64,000 bases of DNA from Haloprofundus halobius (GTDB lineage: Archaea > Halobacteriota > Halobacteria > Halobacteriales > Haloferacaceae), in contig NZ_CP083666.1 in NCBI RefSeq assembly GCF_020097835.1, forward strand, positions 1,736,001-1,800,000, given 5' to 3'. The notes beneath the pieces are model-generated. The model ran no database searches and was not told where the DNA came from. It worked only from the letters and a program-made list of their open reading frames with translations. The stretch's first letter is position 1. Every line of letters begins with the position of its first letter. The position numbers and the translations under genes were made by a program. Of the stretch, positions 13,743-16,137 are shown one piece after another.

Positions 13743-13745
13743 AGT

Positions 13746-13805
13746 GCGGCAGACCTTGTCAGCGAAGAAGAACGTACAGCAGATCTGATCGGCGAAGAAG
13801 ATCGA
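13746..13805 (+). repeat. Two imperfect 30-bp direct repeats after the FAD gene stop
   Basis: Units at 13746-13775 and 13776-13805. Read in the frame of the preceding flavoprotein they encode AADLVSEEER and TADLIGEEDR, and the last coding residues before the stop (SLVDE) resemble part of this unit. They look like decayed duplications of a C-terminal coding end. Confidence 0.5.
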
Positions 13806-13860
13806 TTGGAACCGCGTCGACGAGTATCCGAGCGGGCGTTCGGAGCCACGTAACCCTCCC

Positions 13861-13880
13861 ACACCAGTTTGCAAATGTTC
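13861..13880 (+). repeat. Origin recognition box 1
   Basis: ACACCAGTTTGCAAATGTTC, identical to box 2 and the exact reverse complement of box 3. It lies on the left side of the AT-rich stretch. Confidence 0.82.
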
Positions 13881-13967
13881 GTGACGGCGAGAGAGGGGGT
13901 GGTCTCGCTGCCGAACGGACGAAGAACCCTCATTTCGATATAAAGGAGACGTATCGTCGACCGAACC

Positions 13968-13987
13968 ACACCAGTTTGCAAATGTTC
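13968..13987 (+). repeat. Origin recognition box 2
   Basis: ACACCAGTTTGCAAATGTTC again, in the same orientation as box 1, ending about 20 bases before the AT-rich candidate unwinding element. Confidence 0.82.
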
Positions 13988-14008
13988 GGGGTCGTCTACG
14001 TCCGTCCG

Positions 14009-14070
14009 TTTTGCGAGAAAACTCTATACTACACTACACTAGTTTAGAAAGATATAATCATAAGAAAGAG
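14009..14070. other. AT-rich candidate DNA-unwinding element
   Basis: Of 62 bases only 18 are G or C, against a strongly GC-rich background. It contains CTATACTACACTACACTAG and AAAGATATAATCATAAG. It is bounded by origin boxes pointing inward from both sides, as expected for a DUE. Confidence 0.65.
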
Positions 14071-14206
14071 ATCTCGTCCGGAGACTCACGATAACACGTC
14101 CCACGGCAAGTGTTAGCATCGGGCTTCTCATCGGTCGCGGGTCGTGCTCTCGCCCGAGACCTCCGACCTCGACTCGCGCTCACGCCCCCACCCCCTCTCG
14201 CAGACG

Positions 14207-14226
14207 GAACATTTGCAAACTGGTGT
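14207..14226 (-). repeat. Origin recognition box 3 (inverted)
   Basis: GAACATTTGCAAACTGGTGT, the exact reverse complement of boxes 1 and 2, on the right side of the AT-rich element. Confidence 0.82.
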
Positions 14227-14521
14227 GAGAGAGTGGGCAGCTACGCCGTCCGACCGCCGTCGCAAGTTCCGAGACGTCCGAGAACACTTGAAAACCGCTC
14301 TCCCCCGATTCGAGCCCGACCGTTCGACGGCTGTCGAACGGACTCAACAGTTGAGTTCGTCGCCGGAGTTCGATGGTCGAGTTCGACGGGCTCGGCCGTC
14401 GACAAGCGTTCTCTACTCGAGTCAGCTCGCGACGATGGTCGGCCGAAAGCGGCTAGCACTTGAAACACGTGAAGCATTTGCAAAGCACTAAGTGGTGGCA
14501 CCCGGCAGGCACGAATACTCC

Positions 14522-15886
14522 ATGGCACCGGACTCTATCTTCGAAGACGAGGCCGAGGTGTTCCGCGACATCGAGGTTCTCGAAGAGGACTACACGCCCG
14601 ACACCATCCTCTGTCGCGACGAGGTGATGACGGAGTACATCAACGTCCTCAAGCCCATCTACAAGGGTCGACCGCCCCAGAACGCGTTCCTCTACGGCGA
14701 CACCGGTGTCGGCAAGACCGCCGTGACCAACCACCTCACGACGCAGTTGGAAGACGACATCCGACAGAAGAACGAGGATATCGAGCGAAAGCACGAACGA
14801 ACGCAGGACGCGGACGACGCCGACGAGGCGAACGCCGCCGTCGACGGCGAGACTACCGACGCTGCCAACGCCGTCGATGCCGCCGATTCGACTGCCCCCG
14901 TCGACCTCACCATCGTCAAGGTGAACTGCCAGAACCTCACCTCCACCGGCGAGCGGACCTCCTCCTACCAGGTCGCCATCGCGCTGGTCAACGAACTCCG
15001 CCCGCCGAAGGACATGATCGCCTCCACCGGCTACGCCCCGCAAGCCGTCTACTCGATGCTGTACGAGGAGATGGACGCCCTCGGCGGCACGGTGTTGGTC
15101 ATCCTCGACGAGGTCGACCGCATCGGTGCCGACGACACCATCCTCTACGAACTCCCCCGCGCACGGGCGAACGAGAAGGTCGAAAACGCCCGAATCGGCC
15201 TCATCGGAATCTCGAACGATTACACGTTCCGGTCGAACCTCTCGCCGAAGGTCAAGGACACGCTCTGTGAGACCGAAATCAAGTTCCCGGCCTACAACGC
15301 GATGCAACTACGCGAGATTCTGCGCGACCGCGCCTCCCGCGCGCTCTACGACGAGACGTACGGCGACGACGTCATCGCACTCTGCGCGGCGCTCGCCACC
15401 CGTGAATCCTCCGGGAGCGCCCGAAAAGCCATCAATCTCCTGCGCCGCGCGGGCGAAATCGCCGAGAACGACGGCCGGACGTCCATCCTCGAAGCCAACG
15501 TCCACGAGGCGAAAGACGATCTGGAGTACGGCGACATGGTCGACTCCATCACCGACCAGGACGCGCACAAGCGCTACGTGCTCGCCGCCGTCGCCCACCT
15601 CTCGAAGGCCGACGCGACGCCCGCGCGCGTGAAGGAGGTCCACCGCGCGTACCGCGCCGTCGCCGAGAGCTACGCCGCGGACCCGCTGAGTCAGCGCGGG
15701 ATGTATAACCACCTGACGAAACTGGCGATGCTCGGCTTCCTCACTTCCCACGACAACAACGAGGGTATCAAAGGCGGCCAGTACTACGAGTTCGAGTTCT
15801 CCGACGAGGTCGACCGCTCGAAAGTCCGCGAGGCGTTCGAGTCGATGGGGCACTCCTGGCACGACGTGCGAATTCACGATTCGTAG
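14522..15886 (+). CDS. orc1/cdc6: Orc1/Cdc6 replication initiator
   Basis: A 454-residue AAA+ initiator that would bind origin boxes and load MCM helicase. Walker A GDTGVGKTA lies near residues 57-65, Walker B LVILDEVDRIG near 191-201, sensor 1 around LIGISNDYTF, and the arginine/sensor 2 region GSARKAINLLRRAGEIAE near 300. The winged-helix domain fills the last ~110 residues and ends in the family-typical SMGHSWHDVRI. An acidic low-complexity insert (about residues 92-120) interrupts the ATPase domain. ATG at 14522 was chosen over a GTG at 14492. Origin boxes flank the gene, which suggests it acts on this origin and may repress itself. Confidence 0.95.
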   Translation: MAPDSIFEDEAEVFRDIEVLEEDYTPDTILCRDEVMTEYINVLKPIYKGRPPQNAFLYGDTGVGKTAVTNHLTTQLEDDIRQKNEDIERKHERTQDADDADEANAAVDGETTDAANAVDAADSTAPVDLTIVKVNCQNLTSTGERTSSYQVAIALVNELRPPKDMIASTGYAPQAVYSMLYEEMDALGGTVLVILDEVDRIGADDTILYELPRARANEKVENARIGLIGISNDYTFRSNLSPKVKDTLCETEIKFPAYNAMQLREILRDRASRALYDETYGDDVIALCAALATRESSGSARKAINLLRRAGEIAENDGRTSILEANVHEAKDDLEYGDMVDSITDQDAHKRYVLAAVAHLSKADATPARVKEVHRAYRAVAESYAADPLSQRGMYNHLTKLAMLGFLTSHDNNEGIKGGQYYEFEFSDEVDRSKVREAFESMGHSWHDVRIHDS

Positions 15887-15900
15887 CCCCTGAAACGGGG

Positions 15901-15920
15901 GAGCATTTGTAAACCGGTGT
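15901..15920 (-). repeat. Origin recognition box 4 (inverted)
   Basis: GAGCATTTGTAAACCGGTGT, three or four substitutions from box 3, beginning 15 bases after the orc1/cdc6 stop. Confidence 0.72.
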
Positions 15921-15996
15921 CCCTCGCCCACCGAAACACGTTTATCCGGTTACGTAACTGGACCTCTCGACCGGTTCTGGACGTGTCGTTCACCGG

Positions 15997-16016
15997 GAGC
16001 ATTTGCAAACCGGTGT
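15997..16016 (-). repeat. Origin recognition box 5 (inverted)
   Basis: GAGCATTTGCAAACCGGTGT, sharing the ATTTGCAAAC core with box 3 and the flanks with box 4. Same orientation as boxes 3 and 4. Confidence 0.75.
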
Positions 16017-16020
16017 AGTC

Positions 16021-16137
16021 GCCGGGTCGCGTCGAGTCGCGTCGAGTCGCGTCGAACCACATCGAACCACACCGAACCACACCGCACACATCGAACGCAT
16101 CGAACCAGACCGAACCGGACCGAATCGAGACGCCGAC
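16021..16137. repeat. Degenerate short repeats between origin and coaBC
   Basis: GTCGCGTCGA is repeated three times (GTCGAGTCGCGTCGAGTCGC). It then turns into CGAACCACA(T/C) units and further CGAACC(A/G)GAC variants up to about 16130. No protein frame is credible. The array starts five bases after origin box 5. The rest of the gap up to coaBC (16138-16211) shows nothing recognisable. Confidence 0.6.

Follow-up and report, generated by a model that had tools for sequence, protein, structure and literature searches.

A probable orc1/cdc6-dependent replication origin with a private box family on the Haloprofundus halobius chromosome

RESULTS

Features of the locus

The window analysed here is a stretch of 64,000 nucleotides from Haloprofundus halobius, corresponding to C1:1736001-1800000 of its own genome (3.95 Mb in 5 contigs). 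An intact orc1/cdc6 initiator gene lies in it directly beside an intergenic region carrying repeated boxes and an AT-rich core (Table 1). Flanking genes are ordinary chromosomal ones (an ABC-transporter periplasmic binding protein, a thioredoxin-reductase-like protein, coaBC, and an Mnh antiporter), and five Haloprofundus species and two Halogranum mostly keep them in the same order; in the 7-kb stretches from Haladaptatus, these neighbours were not found. Between box 6 and coaBC, positions 16026-16124 hold two 10-bp tandem arrays, GTCGCGTCGA in 3 copies and TCGAACCACA in 6.7 copies.

Table 1. Features of the orc1/cdc6 locus, in window coordinates
Feature	Position	Strand	Remarks
Box 1 with G-string, outermost left	13854-13880 (box 13861-13880)	+	Exact match; 5 Haloprofundus species agree at 18/20 core and 6/8 flank positions
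ATATAA element, in the interval from box 1 to box 2	13938-13944		5 Haloprofundus species agree at 6/7 positions
Box 2, without G-string	13968-13987	+	Exact match; 16/20 invariant; tail GGTTCGGTCG
AT-rich core	14008-14069		Lowest-G+C 62-mer of the whole window; ACACT repeats, CTAG at 14039, TATAATCATAA
Box 3 with G/A-rich tail	14207-14234 (box 14207-14226)	-	Exact match; 19/20 and 7/8 invariant
Box 4, degenerate, without G-string	14282-14301	-	18/20 invariant in 5 Haloprofundus species
40-bp block before orc, half sites CACTTGAAAC and GCATTTGCAAAG	14454-14493		39/40 invariant in 5 Haloprofundus species
orc1/cdc6 initiator gene	14522-15886	+	Encodes 454 aa; AAA+, lid, and winged-helix domains all intact
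Box 5, downstream of orc; no G-string	15901-15920	-	Three genera have a counterpart at most 22 bp from the stop codon
Box 6, downstream of orc; no G-string	15997-16016	-	Three genera have a counterpart at +71 to +114

Initiator boxes and G-strings

A pattern search of the window placed the 20-mer ACACCAGTTTGCAAATGTTC at boxes 1 to 3 without mismatch and at boxes 5 and 6 with 3 and 2 mismatches, respectively. These are the five boxes described in the initial annotation of this DNA; all are present, and with no match in 100 dinucleotide shuffles, none is expected by chance. The total of five given there was too low. An overlooked sixth box, AGAGCGGTTTTCAAGTGTTC (box 4), emerged from scanning with a position-weight matrix, where it scored 30.4 compared to 4.5 for the next unrelated site in the window, and, independently, from a repeat search. 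A genome search for the 20-mer, suggested earlier as a check, found at up to 3 mismatches the five ACACCAGTTTGCAAATGTTC boxes and one weak 3-mismatch site (C1:1468646), and a reversed control pattern had 0 matches in the whole 3.95-Mb genome; apart from the weak site, the box is restricted to this locus. The partial box noted before the initiator gene (14474-14484) is also real and reads GCATTTGCAAA.

Read on the other strand, box 1 is GAACATTTGCAAACTGGTGT-GGGAGGGT, ending in CTGGTGT followed by GGGAGGGT; its G-string, GGGAGGG, corresponds to CCCTCCC at 13854-13860. Box 3 is GAACATTTGCAAACTGGTGT-GAGAGAGTGGG, with GTGT followed by GAGAGAG at 14227-14233, a weaker, G/A-rich tail with no pure G run. 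Inspection of the box tails revealed no G-string at boxes 2, 4, 5, or 6 of the locus. The halophile G-string is present at the origin in these two forms, and the earlier statement that the core lacks G-strings was mistaken because the 20-mer on which it was based stopped just short of the G-string. Both tails are directed outward from the AT-rich core, the polarity of both oriC1 boxes in the same genome. In 3 of the 4 other Haloprofundus species and in all 3 Halogranum, the outer box likewise runs into GGGAGGG, and most right-hand boxes of Halogranum carry a GAGAGGG or GGGAGGG tail.

AT-rich core

Boxes 1 and 2 (+) and boxes 3 and 4 (-) form inverted ORBs on either side of the core. The low-G+C stretch of 62 bases reported between the two box orientations was confirmed, with 18 G/C and no lower value in the window; it is the likely duplex unwinding element. 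From 14028 to 14068, 35 of 41 positions are invariant in five Haloprofundus species, and across the genus the core is conserved in sequence (TACACTACACTAGTTTAGAAAGATATAATCATAA), beyond composition. Relatives also carry an AT-rich core between convergent boxes, with other repeats in the same place; most genomes of genus g5 have CTAGCTAG followed by runs of AAG, TAG, or GAG.

Such period-3 runs, which resemble the DnaA-trio, lie behind CTAG in several related cores (loci L042-L053, L030-L031, L157, L181, and L182), and in genus g5 the repeated base of the run shifts in concert between species. Compared to dinucleotide shuffles, the runs have p values of 0.003 to 0.03 per segment in many, not all, relatives, with the g5 species not independent of one another, and none of the AT-rich control windows (masked N runs excluded) has a period-3 run of 9. 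The DnaA-trio is defined by at least three consecutive trinucleotides with a central A in the unwinding region (PMC8287927). In the window's own core the longest period-3 run is 3 bases and the longest period-5 run is 9, and a DnaA-trio-like element was rejected for this locus, which has a 5-base repeat instead and no trinucleotide run.

CTAG occurs in 17 of 18 cores, at 35 sites in about 4 kb, versus 0.23 per kb in 800 kb of the H. halobius chromosome. Because clusters of CTAG before haloarchaeal orc genes were previously reported (PMC4752239), we do not present CTAG at origins as a novelty; in H. volcanii, a raised CTAG density was described at oriC2 only (PMC5867850). Most of the oriC1 loci examined, 12 of 15, have CTAG in the core as well (L074-L081 and L153-L156), and oriC1 cores (L070-L081 and L153-L156) hold a short conserved string in the AT-rich region, e.g., CTACTACGGATATGGT in Haloferax and CTAGTCGTGCGGATATTGTT in genus g5.

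Initiator lineage

Domain searches with the Orc protein matched TIGR02928 (E value of 1.2e-114), Cdc6_lid, and Cdc6_C, Walker A and B motifs were found, and the best solved relative is PDB 2qby_A (Cdc6-1; E value of 6.7e-50). The closest named relatives are in Haloprofundus marisrubri (92%), Halogranum (80%), and Haladaptatus (61 to 62%). A tree built from 48 Orc proteins put the window Orc in a clade of its own (support of 100/100) with those of Halogranum, Haladaptatus, genus g5, and several plasmids. The nearest outgroups are Haloferax Orc2 and an Orc encoded on a plasmid of the same H. halobius genome, and the exact sister of the clade is unsure because several rows of the tree are long branches. 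The suggestion that a missing G-string makes the boxes a less-studied class is not supported, as boxes 1 and 3 carry such tails and the box core resembles the box of Haloferax Orc2; the Orc/box pair does form a separate clade, for which no experimentally tested member was found in the literature looked at.

The lineage also occurs on plasmids, with one copy beside parA. That copy lies on a 115-kb plasmid of Haladaptatus pallidirubidus (L159); the Orc/box pair thus acts as a replicon of plasmids too. This plasmid occurrence fits the published view that extra origins were captured from extrachromosomal elements (PMC4010727). Elsewhere in the H. halobius genome, a Cdc6 winged-helix fragment with an internal stop at C3:145592-145801 is what is left of a decayed orc, and an intact orc lies nearby. 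Roughly twelve near-identical boxes (ACACCGTTTTTCCAGTGTTC) surround a related orc at locus L039 (genome G059), with boxes on each side of the gene and many more of them than in Haloprofundus.

Conservation of layout and GC skew

Upstream of orc, Haloprofundus, Halogranum, and Haladaptatus share the order of two boxes in one orientation, AT-rich core, one to three opposite boxes, and orc. Behind the gene, the same three genera have a first box at +11 to +22 and a second at +71 to +114. The innermost convergent boxes are spaced 231 to 244 bp apart in Haloprofundus and in genus g5, where the box is ACACCGGTTTTCGAGTGCTT. When the upstream regions of five Haloprofundus species were aligned, 145 of 161 positions (90%) were invariant in the upstream boxes, core, and 40-bp block, compared to 108 of 618 (17%) in the remaining intergenic DNA. 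The Fisher p value for these islands versus the rest, about 1e-67, is indicative only, since neighbouring positions are not independent.

Cumulative GC skew was computed on 800 kb of chromosome stretches. In the 400 kb from C1:1.55 to 1.95 Mb the maximum, at 1749901, lies between boxes 1 and 2, 21 bases beyond the first and 67 short of the second; absence of a skew shift here had been named as grounds for abandoning the origin reading, and an apex was found beside box 1. The peak in the oriC1 region (2.746 to 2.946 Mb) falls at 2845376, between both oriC1 ORBs, and the apex at an Orc5-type locus is about 7 kb from the gene. These peaks have the same sign and modest height. They support origin use over evolutionary time and bear on present firing only indirectly.

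The chromosome carries three spaced Orc loci, at 949 kb (Orc5 type), 1750 kb (the window locus), and 2846 kb (oriC1) of 3226 kb. A guess from the distance to oriC1 that the window Orc is itself of the Orc5 type was rejected, as the Orc5-type gene is separate, at C1:949 kb. That locus (C1:948-951 kb) contains an ortholog of Haloferax Orc5 preceded by box-like repeats (CACCACGTTTCCGGTGAA), seven of them in one orientation, and is probably a third chromosomal origin. At the universal oriC1 of this genome (C1:2845250-2847800), two ORBs with G-strings flank an AT-rich core, and orc1 and then a signal-peptidase-like gene follow.

DISCUSSION

Boxes shared across genera, a box confined to one locus, a linked intact orc1/cdc6 gene, a core between convergent boxes, and a skew apex all bear out the original reading of this DNA as a replication origin. 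Very probably, the locus is an orc1/cdc6-dependent chromosomal origin and a self-contained replicator-initiator pair, and from its sequence we infer that it fires in vivo.

A mechanism can be proposed that runs from Orc binding through MCM loading and firing to self-regulation and titration. The Orc1/Cdc6 protein encoded at 14522-15886 would bind its own boxes, and Orc on the outward-directed G-string boxes (box 1 on the left, box 3 on the right) would recruit a pair of MCM helicases in face-to-face orientation. Opening of the AT-rich core would follow, and forks would go both ways from about 14.0 to 14.1 kb, with boxes 2, 4, 5, and 6 and the pre-orc half sites as accessory elements. The G-string is essential at Haloarcula hispanica oriC1 (PMC3936714), and the layout described here predicts a division of labour in which boxes with a G-string would start replication and sites lacking one would regulate it.

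Among the latter, the 14454-14493 block is probably a promoter or self-regulation site, by which Orc would regulate its own gene, and boxes 5 and 6 are probably initiator-holding sites. In H. hispanica oriC2, ORBs behind cdc6E damp the origin, probably via initiator binding (PMC3936714). Boxes 5 and 6 likewise lie behind the initiator gene in the manner of oriC2D and are kept in three genera; a damping role like that in H. hispanica is therefore the most likely one, in which they would hold initiator and damp firing as the downstream ORBs of oriC2 do.

It is also conceivable, if rather unlikely, that the AT-rich core is a sequence-read element, which Orc, MCM, or a CTAG methylase would read to guide strand opening or to block refiring. 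With its conserved sequence and recurring CTAG, the core is a compact system for testing how origins are opened in archaea and whether CTAG methylation, a modification whose role has been described as open (PMC6471742), acts there.

Some haloarchaeal origins with every sequence feature are dormant (PMC4595724), and the rival that survives best is an intact, plasmid-competent origin that idles as long as the cell also has oriC1 and the Orc5-type origin. The precedent is H. mediterranei oriC4, which has an orc and boxes and fires only after other origins are deleted (PMC4595724), and the H. halobius chromosome carries, in oriC1 and the Orc5 type, at least two further Orc loci where box-like repeats occur. 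Nevertheless, the skew apex at the boxes argues against dormancy, as does the presence of the locus in 5 of 5 sampled Haloprofundus genomes in a conserved neighbourhood, whereas oriC4 lies in a variable region; we regard dormancy as improbable.

Boxes that serve only transcriptional self-regulation of orc, with no role in replication, would account for the nearly invariant pre-orc block with its half boxes and for boxes on both sides of the gene. However, outer boxes 540 to 660 bp before the start codon are unexpected for an operator, and so are convergence on the lowest-G+C core, conserved spacing, and outward G-strings; with the skew apex at the boxes as well, this explanation is very unlikely. 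Weaker still, and scarcely credible, is a recently integrated plasmid replicon with the origin as passenger, for although clade members occur on plasmids, one of them beside parA, the flanks here are ordinary chromosomal genes in an order mostly shared by five Haloprofundus species and two Halogranum. Those shared flanks rule out recent capture, and an old plasmid capture is possible.

As a chromosomal origin, the locus adds a clearly delimited class, an Orc with a private box, that extends across several haloarchaeal genera and plasmids. Four known systems invite comparison. Like the bacterial BUS/DnaA-trio, several relatives have short tandem repeats in an AT-rich unwinding region beside initiator boxes, whereas the window locus has no trinucleotide run and the initiator and helicase systems differ. 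With the universal archaeal origin, oriC1-orc1, the locus shares inverted boxes around an AT-rich core, outward G-strings, and a skew apex on site. It differs in its Orc (31% over the aligned part) and in the box, which is CACTCGAAACGAAGGGGTGGGGGG at oriC1 of the same genome, and the Orc1-type gene beside a signal-peptidase gene that marks universal oriC1 lies not here but at C1:2.846 Mb.

Compared by layout rather than by Orc sequence, H. hispanica oriC2-cdc6E is similar in that boxes flank its initiator gene on both sides, with the downstream ones acting as a negative regulator (PMC3936714), and differs in having 11 downstream boxes compared to two in the window.

The Haloferax Orc2 origin corresponds to oriC3-orc2 in H. 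volcanii, oriC2-cdc6C in H. mediterranei, and the oriCa family of Wu et al. 2012, and its activity is documented for two species of Haloferax (PMC4595724, PMC7776575). We identified Haloferax Orc2 by its distance of about 560 to 600 kb from orc1 on three chromosomes of a genus taken as Haloferax, a distance that fits HVO_0634 (gene number from PMC7776575, with the position estimated from that number). This genus, g28, matched a plasmid stretch of H. mediterranei at 81 to 87%, whereas genus g5, at first suspected to be Haloferax, reached 73 to 74% with a plasmid stretch of Haloferax larsenii and was rejected as such. Its Orc is among the closest outside the clade, its box (TTCACTTGCAAACGTGGTGTGTGGG) is similar, and convergent boxes flank an AT-rich core before orc; unlike in the window, the DNA behind orc yielded no boxes at those Haloferax loci that were examined, and a long branch separates the two proteins. 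Origin families have been defined by an Orc identity of at least 80% (PMC3528665), and because the window Orc is 47% identical to Haloferax Orc2, it falls outside the Haloferax Orc2/oriCa family.
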